Source: a virus
Length of the DNA: 56,132 bases
IMG/VR virus record: IMGVR_UViG_3300049491_000181
Coordinates: 1-56,132 of that record
Strand: one strand, 5' to 3'
The first letter of the stretch is position 1, and the number at the start of each line of letters is the position of its first letter. A model generated the notes under the pieces. The model was not told the origin of the DNA. It made no database searches and saw nothing but the letters and a program-made list of their open reading frames with translations. Position numbers and translations under genes: made by a program. Positions 11,909 through 16,994 of this stretch are shown here, piece after piece.

Positions 11909-12084
11909 GATTTCCCTCCTACAAAAGCTGCAAAAGCTGCTAACACACTAAACACGGCGCTGATGGCCGCCCCAACTGCGAAAAATAGCGCCATTGTTTC
12001 AGTGCTGCTGCCAACTGAGCATGCCAAGCAACCCCATGTCGCTACATCAAAACGGCTATGCGGATTAACTTGTGGAACGGCCAT
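11905..12084 (-). CDS. Small membrane protein
   Basis: 59 residues from the ATG at 12084, inside the end of the transposase-HNH gene (20-base overlap). A hydrophobic segment rich in Ala, Phe and Val occupies about residues 31-55, just before the C-terminus. The strong GGAGGG site for the next micro-ORF lies at its 3' end. Function unknown. Confidence 0.5.
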   Translation of the reverse strand: MAVPQVNPHSRFDVATWGCLACSVGSSTETMALFFAVGAAISAVFSVLAAFAAFVGGKS

Positions 12085-13489
12085 GCGTGTGAGTGAGTGC
12101 GCTCGTGTGGAATCGCTCGTGGCAGGGACGGCATACGACCATGACCTTTCTGTGCTCCCCGGCCACCAAGGGCAGGGTCTGGTGTATCTGCAGCTCGGCG
12201 GGCTCGAAGACACCGCCACAGGACTGGCAACGGTTTCCGGCCGCTGCGATGGCGTGCCGCCGCTCCATCTGGCTGATGCGTCTGGTCGGGTCCATCTTCA
12301 GAGGCTCCGGGGTTGGGGCCTGCTGGGGCGGCAACCCCTTGCCGAACAGCAGGCGGGCGCGCAGCACGTCGAAGCTGTAGCCCCGGCCGGCACGGTTGAT
12401 GGTCTTGGCGACCCCGTTCAGTGCTTCGGTGTAGGCGTTGCTGATGGGGTGGTCGAAGTACGCCAGAATTTCCCGGCGCCAGTTCTTCATGCTGGTGGTC
12501 AGCACCTTGAAGTCGGCCTTCAGGTCGGCCGGGATGGTGGCGGCGAAGCCGTCATAGGCGGCGACGGCCTGGGCCTTGGGCATGTCGTAGATGCCGTAGA
12601 ACGCTTCCTTCAGCCCGTGGGCGGCCTTCAGGGTCGGCTCGTTGTCCAGCCACATGTCCACGTTGAACCGCTGCTTCTCGGTCAGCTTGCCGTAGCGCAT
12701 GTTCAGCAGGGCCTTGGAGCGCAGCCAGTCCCGGCGCTCGCCCGACTTCTTGACCTTCTGCAGCCGGATGCGGACCCGCTCCATGCAGTAGCTGGCCGTC
12801 CTGACGACGTGGAACTTGTCGATGACCACGGGCACGCCGGGCAGCATGTGCCGGGCCACGTCGCGGTAAGGGCGCCACATGTCGATGGCGACGCCCTGGA
12901 CGTGGCTGCGGTCCCGGTAGTGGTTCAACCAGGTGGTCAGCGTGCCTTTGTCACGCTCGGCCAGCATCTCGATGGGGCGGTGCGCGCCGATGTCGGTGAT
13001 GACGCAGCGCATCTTCCCGTCAATCTGCGTCTCGTCGATGCCCAGCCAGGCCGGCAGGGCGGGCCGGTAGCCAGCCCCGATGGCGGCGATGTGGTCGCCA
13101 GCCAGGCTCCGCACGGTCTTGTCGTCGCAGCCGATGTTGTCGGCGATGCGGACGAAGGTGTCCCGCAGGCACTGCTGCTTGATGAAGGCGGCGCAGCGCT
13201 CAGTCATGCGCATGTCCTCTTGGATGCCACCCATCGGCTGCAGGAACGTCTCCCCGCACTCCCGGCACTTGTACCGCCGCACCCTGGCAAGGATGCGGGT
13301 GGCGTGCCCACGGATGGGGCTGTCGCGGAACGTGGTGAGCTTGGTGCCGTGCTTGTACAGACGGTCCAGCACGCCGCACTTCTGGCAGGCGGCCGGCTGA
13401 ACGGTGTACTCGGCTTCCAGTTCGTACTCCGCGCCGTCGAGGCGCTTCCCCAGGACGGTCCAGCCTGGCAGGTCGAGGATGTCGGTCAT
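12065..13489 (-). CDS. ISL3-type transposase fused to HNH nuclease domain
   Basis: 474 residues. Residues 1-385 match an ISL3-family transposase: zinc pairs CQKC (35-38) and CREC (75-78), a helix-turn-helix, then GIDETQ (Asp152), AIDMW (Asp203), VVIDKFHVV (Asp224), NAYTEALNG (Glu355) and a terminal GYSFDVLRARLLFGKG block, all intact. Residues 408-461 add an HNH-type domain: CQSC (421-424), LQIHQ (His436), CRPCH (453-457) and His461. The ATG directly follows the stop of the upstream gene and the 3' end overlaps the next, so this is an operon member, not a free insertion sequence with visible terminal repeats. It may be a domesticated transposase or a homing-type element. Confidence 0.85.
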   Translation of the reverse strand: MTDILDLPGWTVLGKRLDGAEYELEAEYTVQPAACQKCGVLDRLYKHGTKLTTFRDSPIRGHATRILARVRRYKCRECGETFLQPMGGIQEDMRMTERCAAFIKQQCLRDTFVRIADNIGCDDKTVRSLAGDHIAAIGAGYRPALPAWLGIDETQIDGKMRCVITDIGAHRPIEMLAERDKGTLTTWLNHYRDRSHVQGVAIDMWRPYRDVARHMLPGVPVVIDKFHVVRTASYCMERVRIRLQKVKKSGERRDWLRSKALLNMRYGKLTEKQRFNVDMWLDNEPTLKAAHGLKEAFYGIYDMPKAQAVAAYDGFAATIPADLKADFKVLTTSMKNWRREILAYFDHPISNAYTEALNGVAKTINRAGRGYSFDVLRARLLFGKGLPPQQAPTPEPLKMDPTRRISQMERRHAIAAAGNRCQSCGGVFEPAELQIHQTLPLVAGEHRKVMVVCRPCHERFHTSALTHTHGRSTS

Positions 13490-13852
13490 TCACGAATTGT
13501 CCGGCGCCACAAGCGCCTGCCTGATGGCATCCTTCCAGCTCTCCCTGACGTGCGTCGCTGGAGCTTCCAGCATGCGGCGCAGAAGCTGATGCAGGCGGTC
13601 AATCTCCACCGAGGAGTTGATTGAATGCCGACGCAGGTCTTCGTACCCGGCATGCTTCGCGTCCAGCGCTGCTCGGAGCAGCTTGGACTCGACCTCGGCC
13701 GCGATTGCCCGCCGATAGAGTTCAGGGTCCATCGTCATATTCACCTTTATGGCGTACAGCTCGGGCTCGTCATCCGGCAGCCGCACAGACTCTGGGCAAT
13801 CGCATGTGTCACACATGCCGTCGCACTTTCGGGTGTGTTGGTGGTAGCTCAT
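13490..13852 (-). CDS. Small Cys-rich/coiled-coil protein upstream of transposase
   Basis: 120 residues. The N-terminus carries CDGMCDTCDC, a tight cysteine cluster; the middle is a helical segment with coiled-coil character. Its ATG overlaps the previous stop, and its own TGA is followed immediately by the transposase ATG. It could be a partner of the transposase-HNH protein, by context only. Confidence 0.6.
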   Translation of the reverse strand: MSYHQHTRKCDGMCDTCDCPESVRLPDDEPELYAIKVNMTMDPELYRRAIAAEVESKLLRAALDAKHAGYEDLRRHSINSSVEIDRLHQLLRRMLEAPATHVRESWKDAIRQALVAPDNS

Positions 13853-14085
13853 GCTTCGTAGTCTGTGCAGTCATCGCAGCCGTTGCAGCCGTCAGCGCAG
13901 CGCCACAGGTCGCCCAGGCGCCCACCAGCCTTCACCACGCATGCGCGACCAGGACCGCGCCCGGCGCCATCGCATGTGCAAGGCTTGCGCGTATCAGCCG
14001 GCCCGACGCTCTGGTCAGGGTCGCCAGCTTCAGCCTCGCGCGCCGCATCAGCGCGAGCTTGTGATTCGGTGTGGCTCACCTTCAT
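13849..14085 (-). CDS. Small Cys-rich protein
   Basis: 78 residues. The C-terminal half contains CTCDGAGRGPGRAC and CADGCNGCDDC, resembling a DnaJ-type Cys-rich or zinc-ribbon motif. The N-terminal half is charged and probably disordered. Overlaps both neighbours by four bases. Confidence 0.6.
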   Translation of the reverse strand: MKVSHTESQARADAAREAEAGDPDQSVGPADTRKPCTCDGAGRGPGRACVVKAGGRLGDLWRCADGCNGCDDCTDYEA

Positions 14086-14504
14086 GCCGCGTCGCGCACT
14101 TCGCGGAACTCATCGCTCGGCGCCTGCTGCCGCAGTTGGCGGCCGAAGTCCAGCAGCCGCGCGTGCAGGTCGGGGCGGAAGGTGGCGAACACGTCACTGC
14201 AGTGCAGCACGTCCTTCAGCAGCGAAACCAGTTCGCGCTCGGGCTGCCCGGCGTCTTGCGGGGCGTTCGAGTGTGCTTGCCGCATGGCGCACCACATCTC
14301 TTTGGTTTCGTCCAGCGTGAGGCGGCGGCGCGTTGAGACCGAGTTTTCCCACAGCCACGTCTCAATGGTGCGCAGGGCTTGCGCGCCATGCTCTGACCGC
14401 ACGTTCAGGGTCTTTGCCGCTGGCGTTGCGGCGCGGCGCGGCAGCGGCTGAATCTCGACGGGCACTCGGCCAGCGCTGCGCGGGAATGGGGAATTGGTTC
14501 GCAT
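14082..14504 (-). CDS. Hypothetical protein in transposase operon
   Basis: 140 residues, start ATG at 14504 with GGAGAACG upstream. The first 30 residues are Pro/Arg-rich and likely disordered; the rest is helical and soluble. No recognisable domain. Co-translated with the following gene. Confidence 0.6.
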   Translation of the reverse strand: MRTNSPFPRSAGRVPVEIQPLPRRAATPAAKTLNVRSEHGAQALRTIETWLWENSVSTRRRLTLDETKEMWCAMRQAHSNAPQDAGQPERELVSLLKDVLHCSDVFATFRPDLHARLLDFGRQLRQQAPSDEFREVRDAA

Positions 14505-14516
14505 GTCGTTCTCCGT

Positions 14517-14747
14517 TTAGGTTGCCTTGCGTGCCCAGACCGCTGGGCAATGCACGTTGTGCGTCATGTCGGCGGCATCGTCTAAGCGCGCCCAACCACT
14601 CCACCGCATGCTCATCCAGTTACCGCAGGCCGGGCACACGACACGGCCGGGGCCGTTTTCTTCGTGCTCGTCCACGGGCTCAATCTTTGCCAGCATCTCA
14701 AGTACGGCGCGCGGCATCGCCACTGCAGCCCAGTCTTGTTTTTCCAT
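14517..14747 (-). CDS. Small zinc-binding-like protein
   Basis: 76 residues from the ATG at 14747, which overlaps the previous stop as TGATG. A CPACGNW motif near residues 38-44 and a cysteine near the C-terminus suggest a small zinc site. A longer frame to 14789 would overlap the gene before it and is unlikely. Confidence 0.55.
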   Translation of the reverse strand: MEKQDWAAVAMPRAVLEMLAKIEPVDEHEENGPGRVVCPACGNWMSMRWSGWARLDDAADMTHNVHCPAVWARKAT

Positions 14748-14920
14748 CACTGCTGCCCCGCTGCCATCGCAATCATGCGGTCTTGCCACGCCCGCTCAGC
14801 GGCGCGGTCGGCGGCCGGGTCGCGGGCCTTCGCCTGCTGCCCCACGTACTCGGTTTGCTGGAACGGGGTGCGCTGCTGCTTGTTGGCAATCAGGCGGTCA
14901 ATGGCTTGGGCTTGGTTCAT
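14747..14920 (-). CDS. First gene of the transposase operon, small helical protein
   Basis: 57 residues from the ATG at 14920 (an ATG at 14935 is also in frame). Gln- and Ala-rich and helical. It is the first gene after the promoter at 14954-14982. Function unknown. Confidence 0.5.
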   Translation of the reverse strand: MNQAQAIDRLIANKQQRTPFQQTEYVGQQAKARDPAADRAAERAWQDRMIAMAAGQQ

Positions 14921-14930
14921 GGTGTCGCTT

Positions 14931-14991
14931 TCCACACGTTATTCCGTTCTTTGACTATAGAGCAACCTCATGGATTCCACAAGTTATTCCG
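14931..14991 (-). promoter_or_regulatory. Promoter with paired operator-like repeats for transposase operon
   Basis: On the minus strand, TTGTGG (14977-14982) and TATAGT (14954-14959) are 17 bases apart, a good sigma70 promoter. A 16-base element, CGGAATAAC(T/G)TGTGGA, occurs twice in direct orientation, at 14976-14991 over the -35 and at 14931-14946 just downstream of the -10, with one mismatch. The spacing and positions suggest two sites for one regulator. Confidence 0.6.
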
Positions 14992-15021
14992 GAGAGCCAT
15001 CAAAACGTGTTGCCGTGTTGT

Positions 15022-15994: not shown

Positions 15995-16918
15995 TCAAAA
16001 GAACGTCACAGCAGACCGCTTGAACACGGGCCGCAGCCCCTTGGCGTACTCTTTGAAGAATCGGATATTCCACTTGTCGCGCATGCCGTGCATCGTGCCG
16101 AGTAGTTCAGGATCGAAACCCTGTGCCCGGATGATCCCATCATAGTGTAATTGCGTGTGCGGGTCGAGGCTCCAATAAGACTGGTCCTCGTCGTGAACGC
16201 TTGATGACCGACGACTGATGGCGAATGATTTTGGCCGGCCGTCTGGCCGCCTTAGCAGGATGTTCCCGAAACGCCCGACCATTAGCCACGATGTTGAGTC
16301 AACACTGAACCACGGGTAACGCTCCATCAGTTCAAACGTGGTCAGGCCGAAGCCGTGAACCTTGACGCGGGCGCTACCGTCAGGCAGTGCGAGATACTTG
16401 TCCCAAATGTGGTCGAGCCAGTCAACGAGATAACCCGTGGTTTCGGGAACCATGCCGCCAAGAAAGATGTAGTCATAACCCTCGTCCAGATACTTGACGA
16501 GCCATGAGTCGTGATCCCGGGCGTGGTGTACCGGACACACACGCACCGGCAGCTTCAGTGACTCGAGGTACTTCTGATTATCGTAGCTGCCCTGTTCCTG
16601 ATTGCGCCCGATCACATCGACATTTGACGCAATCTCGAGGATGTCAGGGCGTTCGCAGATATACTCCGCGTAGGCGTCAAGGTCAACTTCGGCGCCGAGG
16701 GTGAACATCGAGAACGCGCCGGAGTCGAGAAAGATTTGGCACCTGGCTTTGCGTATTACATCATCGAGGTTCTGCTTGCGAATGTAGTGATATGACTCGA
16801 GGTGATACGGGTAGACCTCGGACGCCGTAGCGGCCACATTGGGGTTTACCGCGTCGGGGTCGCCCCAGCCGCTATGGAACTTGGCTGCGATGTAAATACG
16901 GAGGTCTTGCGGTTCCAT
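15995..16918 (-). CDS. dpdA: DpdA-type DNA guanine transglycosylase
   Basis: 307 residues from the ATG at 16918 (a GGGGGTGA site lies just upstream; a TTG at 16945 is weaker). The protein has the TIM-barrel signatures of the tRNA-guanine transglycosylase superfamily in the phage DpdA form: QIFLDSGAFSMF (Asp65), YIFLGGM (151-156), KVHGFGLTTFELM (186-198) and FSVDSTSW with the likely nucleophile Asp207. The zinc-binding Cys cluster of tRNA enzymes is absent. DpdA exchanges guanine in DNA for a 7-deazaguanine. FolE, QueE, QueD and QueC lie just upstream in the same operon, which strongly supports the call. Confidence 0.88.
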   Translation of the reverse strand: MEPQDLRIYIAAKFHSGWGDPDAVNPNVAATASEVYPYHLESYHYIRKQNLDDVIRKARCQIFLDSGAFSMFTLGAEVDLDAYAEYICERPDILEIASNVDVIGRNQEQGSYDNQKYLESLKLPVRVCPVHHARDHDSWLVKYLDEGYDYIFLGGMVPETTGYLVDWLDHIWDKYLALPDGSARVKVHGFGLTTFELMERYPWFSVDSTSWLMVGRFGNILLRRPDGRPKSFAISRRSSSVHDEDQSYWSLDPHTQLHYDGIIRAQGFDPELLGTMHGMRDKWNIRFFKEYAKGLRPVFKRSAVTFF

Positions 16919-16919
16919 T

Positions 16920-16994
16920 TCACCCCCGCCCCCAACGATACGCAACGATCATCAACCACACGAAACAAGCAACCGCCCAGGTGATCGGGTTCAC
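16920..16994 (-). CDS. Possible 24-residue membrane peptide
   Basis: A GTG at 16994, overlapping the previous stop as GTGA, opens a 24-residue frame that is hydrophobic through most of its length and ends in GRG. It fills exactly the gap before dpdA and its 3' end provides the Gly-codon run that serves as the dpdA ribosome site. Real coding is uncertain. Confidence 0.35.
   Translation of the reverse strand: MNPITWAVACFVWLMIVAYRWGRG

Follow-up and report, generated by a model that had tools for sequence, protein, structure and literature searches.

A phage genome fragment from IMG/VR (record IMGVR_UViG_3300049491_000181, positions 1 to 56,132; this whole 56,132-nucleotide stretch is called the window below) carries a gene for an ISL3-type transposase that ends in an HNH-like pattern and directly follows a row of small open reading frames, which raises the question of whether the transposase was taken over for a phage function or belongs to a mobile element. 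On sequence evidence, the best explanation of the locus as a whole, and a highly probable one, is that positions 12054–14998 form a complete ISL3-family transposon residing in a tailed phage. We describe here its borders, its transposase, its relatives and the replacement of its cargo, and we weigh how that cargo may be exchanged.

Borders of the element and its host phage

The initial annotation, which looked near the gene, had found no terminal inverted repeats or target duplication and had placed the gene in a phage replication operon; both statements turned out to be wrong. Terminal repeats are present at 12054–12078 and 14974–14998 with a perfect duplication, ATCAAAAC, directly outside them, and they delimit an element of 2,945 bp. 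As in other ISL3 elements, the repeats are imperfect and start with GGC/GGG, and the target duplication is 8 bp long and A+T-rich. The right repeat extends 11 bp past the transposase stop codon. Given that the left repeat (outer edge at 14998) lies 1.5 kb upstream of the transposase start codon and that five small genes lie between the two, those genes are cargo and not replication genes, and the suggestion of a new mobile unit carrying several small genes, one of several made initially, was right. Under the same search rule, none of 135 random window positions gave a pair of repeats and duplication as good as this one (best 25.0 versus 30.6 observed). At both ends, the inner half of the repeat recurs once more in a subterminal position. 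The whole record contains a single ISL3 match and thus no composite transposon with two flanking IS copies. The features of the element are as follows.

12046–12053, no strand: 8-bp target-site duplication at the right (transposase) end, ATCAAAAC, identical to 14999–15006
12054–12078, no strand: right terminal inverted repeat, GGCTATGCGGATTAACTTGTGGAAC as read on the plus strand; 21/25 match to the left repeat; spans the transposase stop codon (12065–12067)
12065–13489, minus: ISL3-family DDE transposase with HNH-derived C-terminal tail, 474 aa (Pfam, NCBIfam, AlphaFold2 model)
12101–12268, minus: HNH-derived zinc-finger tail, residues 408–463; zinc cysteines kept, catalytic His replaced by Gln
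12104–12112, no strand: subterminal copy of the inner repeat half, TTCCACACG on the minus strand, within codons R-F-H-T; position common to nearly all tailed relatives
12338–13489, minus: transposase core, residues 1–384, with zinc ribbon, HTH-like region and DDE domain (D152, D203/D224, E355; Pfam and alignment)
13490–13501, minus: fixed junction GACAATTCGTGA directly 5' of the transposase ATG (comparison with other elements)
13490–13852, minus: cargo ORF 5, 120 aa; ends directly against the transposase ATG; Pfam and PHROG searches gave nothing below E 0.3
13849–14085, minus: cargo ORF 4, 78 aa, Cys-rich (ORF call)
14082–14504, minus: cargo ORF 3, 140 aa, function not recognised (ORF call)
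14517–14747, minus: cargo ORF 2, 76 aa from the ATG at 14747, CxxC protein, function not recognised (ORF call)
14747–14920, minus: cargo ORF 1, 57 aa; ATG 7 bases after the left-end GGAAAG
14928–14959, minus: inner part of the left end, with TATAGT (14954–14959), subterminal repeat CGGAATAACGTGTGGAA and GGAAAG, kept in the family
14974–14998, no strand: left terminal inverted repeat, GGCTCTCCGGAATAACTTGTGGAAT on the minus strand; pairs with the right repeat at 21/25
14999–15006, no strand: left-end 8-bp target-site duplication ATCAAAAC, identical to 12046–12053

The host record belongs to a tailed phage, as shown by its genes for primase, terminase, portal, processivity factor and a queuine-transferase-like protein. 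The element has the processivity-factor gene on one side and, on the other, small ORFs that precede the DNA polymerase gene. The G+C content of the cargo region is 0.64–0.65 versus about 0.60 in the phage. Adjoining the processivity-factor gene, a queuine tRNA-ribosyltransferase-like gene (15995–16945, PHROG 887) suggests that the phage may carry 7-deazaguanine DNA modification. DNA-level relatives of this phage amounted to short matches of 67–73% identity, mostly to Pseudomonas phages of about 61 kb, and no relatives of its processivity-factor protein were found. The comparison of related phages with and without the gene, proposed initially, yielded no empty site for the window element.

Transposase core and tail

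The 474-aa reading frame is uninterrupted, as first described, and needed correction only in its strand, which is minus (13489 to 12065). Its identification as an ISL3 transposase with zinc pairs and Asp/Asp/Glu residues was confirmed by profile matches to the ISL3 DDE domain (PF01610, 1e-53, over residues 24–382), the N-terminal zinc ribbon (PF14690, 4e-9) and the NCBIfam ISL3 transposase model NF033550 (282 bits versus a cut-off of 180), as well as by the invariance of D152, D203, D224 and E355 among 27 aligned relatives. The AlphaFold2 model had a mean pLDDT of 85.8 with a confident core, and the closest PDB structure was the ISCth4 transposase. Core dN/dS values of 0.04–0.13 between close relatives indicate strong purifying selection; comparing the window's own core to its nearest relatives gave higher values (0.25–0.38).

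The C-terminal CxxC...His...CxxCH...H pattern noted at the outset is present: residues 408–463 form a CxxC...CxxCH...H finger with weak matches to PHROG HNH families and a profile match to the HNH nuclease structure 4h9d (E 0.007). The zinc CxxC pairs are invariant in 27 tailed proteins and in 16 aligned tails, and these four cysteines are the only HNH-site residues invariant in the family. In the window, the HNH active site proved incomplete on inspection, with zinc CxxC pairs but no catalytic His (second of D/H-H), as Gln occupies the general-base position (IHQTLPL), and no Asn before the second CxxC. Most members have likewise replaced the catalytic His and lost the Asn, with HH or DH retained only in L055, L020, L022, L024 and L007 (L numbers are our handles for individual loci). 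Because of these losses, the tail is unlikely to be a nuclease in the window and in most relatives. All tailed transposases form one clade (100/100 branch support), so the transposase–HNH fusion is real and old. The earliest-branching member, L055, has a complete HH...N...CH motif and matches PF01844 with 29 bits (cut-off 21.4). Tail dN/dS is mostly 0.10–0.5 in close pairs, which is faster than the core but still constrained. Taken together, the tail is most likely a zinc finger recruited from an HNH nuclease that now serves as a DNA- or protein-binding module. In the last 18 codons of tailed transposases (about 12068–12121 in the window), little protein-level selection was detected and the DNA repeats are kept. 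The coding sequence enters the right end, so that repeat DNA encodes the FHT and ST residues of the tail, and the transposase C-terminus thus seems to be dictated by the transposon end.

Cargo and operon layout in the window

The window cargo genes had no recognised function in Pfam and PHROG profile searches and no match in cultured phages. Across the family, the left end has a −10-like TATAnT and, at its inner edge, a ribosome-site-like GGAAAG, and cargo ORFs usually start within about 20 bp of the latter. This left end probably provides the promoter and ribosome site for the operon; no consensus sigma-70 site passed our scan of it. The transposase ATG abuts the upstream stop codon without a gap, as the initial annotation stated, and in most intact elements the final cargo gene stops within −11 to +24 of the transposase start. 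Because the two touch or nearly touch, translation of the transposase is probably coupled to that of the last captured ORF.

Tailed relatives

Protein searches recovered tailed relatives with 44–71% identity in IMG/VR contigs and bacterial genomes; many of the element hosts are MAGs or contigs that IMG/VR classes as viral. In DNA alignments, homology between the window element and its relatives ends at the element borders, and the relatives occupy unrelated sites. Thirty tailed insertions, including that of the window, have perfect 8-bp duplications in viral contigs and bacteria, and 28 scored duplications (27 tailed, one tail-less) were 73% A+T versus 40% in the flanks. Seven elements (L002, L003, L005, L027, L033, L035 and L048) have ends without a matching duplication. 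A degenerate left-end pattern search over IMG/VR returned only elements that were already known. All tailed elements follow a common plan, with a left end of about 70 bp, cargo on the transposase strand, and then the transposase gene itself, which terminates within or next to the right repeat. Dozens of relatives have the same ends and transposase with completely different, mostly phage-type genes between them, and phages therefore appear to trade genes through these elements.

One Xenophilus genome holds three near-identical copies, two of them with perfect duplications. Cargo was shared solely among copies of one element, namely the Xenophilus copies L047, L049 and L050 and the identical sequence in MAG contig L048 (99.6–100%). 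The L048 contig is binned as Chloroflexota, and its element, 100% identical to that of Xenophilus, reflects either recent transfer or a binning error. Internally deleted elements with perfect duplications were observed in L008 (5475–6395), L009 (4519–5652) and L044 (5214–6590). All three deletions are in frame from the transposase start to the tail, L009 and L044 retain a methyltransferase ORF, and these copies are possibly non-autonomous elements moved in trans.

Among the cargo genes of relatives, Pfam searches identified DNA methylases in L007, L009, L025, L038 and L044, DpdA in L032 and NADAR in L029. By eye only, we recognised methyltransferase-like cargo in L034 and L039/L053 and a likeness to PAPS-reductase-type proteins in L046 and L056. 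Further cargo genes match PHROG families of unknown function, and relatives of the L047 cargo occur in 26 viral contigs.

Tail-less relatives and movement between phages

The Vibrio phage K256 contains a tail-less element of 2,484 bp with the same plan and a DNA methyltransferase as cargo, flanked by two copies of GAAAAGAG, and its sister phage K303 has the exact empty site with a single GAAAAGAG; the same two-piece match was obtained in many further records. Phage K288, otherwise almost without similarity to K256 over the stretch compared, has an identical element flanked by two copies of GAAAAAAG. The empty site and the identical copy indicate that this tail-less relative has moved between different phages. 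The two phages come from seawater and oyster samples of the same kind.

Perfect duplications also flank elements in Escherichia phage Fraca, Vibrio phages Seahorse and Val-yong3, Caulobacter phage DMCA, two Vibrio genomes and a Rhodanobacter plasmid. The plasmid element (NZ_CP088981.1; 814–4428 of L106) has 24/25 inverted repeats, an 8-bp duplication, and a nucleotidyltransferase and DUF86 pair as cargo that looks like an MNT/HEPN toxin–antitoxin system. Terminal repeats were not convincing in Pseudomonas phage HB2107-3I, Lysinibacillus phage vB_LspM-01, Bacillus phage BSP9, Clostridioides phage LIBA6276 and a Burkholderia plasmid. HB2107-3I (1099–4231 of L011) has two different ISL3-like transposase genes in tandem, each preceded by a small gene, with no clear ends. 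In the two Firmicutes phages vB_LspM-01 and BSP9 (L114 and L115), a methyltransferase gene stands directly before the ISL3 transposase gene, and in the Burkholderia multivorans plasmid (NZ_CP048444.1, L110), Type ISP restriction/modification genes lie directly 5' of it.

The cargo slot

Cargo homology was undetectable in 32 close pairs (29 plus three) whose transposase DNA was 84–96% identical. Homology on the left stops at bp 69–82 and on the right resumes at the start codon (L020/L022/L024 and L026/L028/L030/L032/L051 clades), 9–17 bp before it (L002/L003/L004/L006/L008/L045) or about 20 bp before it (L034/L035/L039). Judging by these alignments, replacement takes in the entire cargo at once, from about bp 70 of the left end to the transposase start. 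Directly 5' of the ATG, an inverted copy of the transposase repeat, TTCCACACnnnAATCCGGGG, is present in L034–L037, L039, L042, L044, L046 and L047–L049. This internal repeat matches at 13–15 of 15 positions in L027 (13), L042, L044 and L047–L049, whereas random stretches taken from the cargo of these elements reached no more than 10; in L034–L037, L039 and L046 it was recognised by eye. The window junction GACAATTCGTGA is a probable remnant of it.

Proposed mechanism and alternatives

Borders, duplications, relatives, cargo replacement and the movement of the tail-less relative are taken from the sequences themselves, and to these our model adds a promoter, translational coupling, a tail function and a mode of cargo exchange, which we infer. 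The DDE transposase would bind terminal and subterminal repeats at both ends and move everything between them, in the window including the five cargo genes, into A+T-rich 8-bp targets. It would be the last gene of a small operon in which the left end supplies promoter and ribosome site, followed by captured ORFs, to the last of which its translation would be coupled. The cargo would be swapped as a block between about bp 70 and the transposase start, and the tail would derive from one HNH domain, gained once and now binding DNA or protein. The K256/K303/K288 relative and the three Xenophilus copies support transposition indirectly, and the window copy may be active.

Two readings of the locus as something other than a transposon can be given hardly any weight. 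The HNH-derived tail and conserved core might suggest a domesticated transposase turned homing or weapon nuclease, as initially guessed, but complete ends with a perfect duplication, relatives at many unrelated sites, purifying selection on the core and the lost catalytic His and Asn speak against domestication or a homing nuclease, and nothing supported an anti-competitor weapon. An assembly chimera or binning artefact could be suspected, as the window, like most tailed relatives, comes from metagenome contigs or MAGs; that the same architecture with 8-bp duplications recurs in the sequenced phages K256, K288, Fraca, Seahorse, Val-yong3 and DMCA, in the Xenophilus isolate genome and in a plasmid makes this extremely improbable.

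How the transposon exchanges its cargo is a closer question. Our first choice, which we consider somewhat probable, is ordinary phage mosaicism, in which illegitimate or homologous recombination, with left end and transposase as homology arms, supplies the variants from which selection keeps those with an intact left end and a transposase coupled to the upstream ORF. This agrees with the closeness of the last cargo stop to the transposase start, with a similar methyltransferase gene (71% nucleotide identity) on the two transposase lineages of L053 and L039, and with the cargo dpdA of L032, since viral contig L087 contains a 72% identical homologue around which we found no element. Random breakpoints should nevertheless leave half-replaced cargo, and no element among the 32 close pairs has any. 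The lack of any cargo similarity in these pairs would sit well with a dedicated gene-capture device, somewhat integron-like but of other chemistry, in which the transposase, perhaps via its tail, exchanges cassettes at inverted internal sites, CGGAnnnnCGTGTGGAA in the left end and TTCCACACnnnAATCCG before the ATG. Homology does break repeatedly where the left subterminal repeat has its inner edge, the L034/L035/L039 clade breaks at the internal repeat, and that repeat exceeds random expectation where scored. Yet about half of the elements have an eroded internal repeat or none and show the break at the start codon itself, DDE transposases make their cuts outside terminal repeats and not at inner edges, most tails are without HNH catalytic residues, and selection for translational coupling could yield the same borders; we therefore regard dedicated exchange at internal repeats as unlikely. 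The fuller proposal of a phage gene-capture system, with a slot framed by inverted transposase-binding repeats, refilled with counter-defence and other small genes with help from the HNH-derived tail, and moving between unrelated phages, is similarly doubtful, and recombination with selection remains our preferred account of the exchange.

Significance and comparison with known systems

Small accessory genes are exchanged at a high rate among phage genomes, and the vehicles are mostly unknown. This element family is such a gene-exchange vehicle, with exact borders and duplications that prove insertion, and for a tail-less relative there is direct evidence that a methyltransferase-carrying element moved between different phages. 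As genes for DNA modification (methyltransferases, DpdA, NADAR) abound in the cargo, protection against host restriction may spread with these transposons. With its fixed slot, the family also opens to direct testing how transposons come by their passengers.

Integrons are recognised by a tyrosine integrase and attC sites. The present elements resemble them in having an exchangeable gene slot behind a fixed, probably promoter-bearing end, but differ in that a DDE transposase moves the whole element. Pfam detected no integrase in the four of five window cargo ORFs scanned, and no attC was seen. Integrons and gene cassettes have also been reported in phage genomes (PMC9892861). HNH nucleases (PF01844; 4h9d) share the two CxxC zinc pairs and, in L055, the complete HH...N...CH motif, whereas the window and most relatives have lost the catalytic residues. 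The 'transposase' phages of PHROG 5749 (K256, Fraca, Seahorse, Val-yong3) encode proteins 28–33% identical, placed directly after small cargo genes in elements with 8-bp duplications, but these have no HNH tail and, in the Vibrio phages and Fraca, the stop codon lies about 60 bp short of the right end.

In the open-access literature, we found no report of phage ISL3 cargo transposons, a fixed cargo slot or an ISL3–HNH fusion. ISL3-family insertion sequences with passenger genes are known, including ISPpu12 with czcD and ISPst2 with arsR and a permease (PMC4447125, PMC6305408), and we therefore file the window element as an ISL3 transposon. Both share with it the transposase family, repeats of about 24 bp starting with GGC/GGG, 8-bp duplications, a length of about 3–3.4 kb and internal passenger genes. 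In contrast, their reported passengers are metal- or stress-related genes on plasmids, while the present elements reside in phages and bacteria, carry phage-type and DNA-modification cargo that is replaced wholesale at fixed borders, and have an HNH-derived tail and a transposase stop codon in or beside the right repeat. Relative to known ISL3 passenger elements, the phage residence, the cargo slot and the tail look new.
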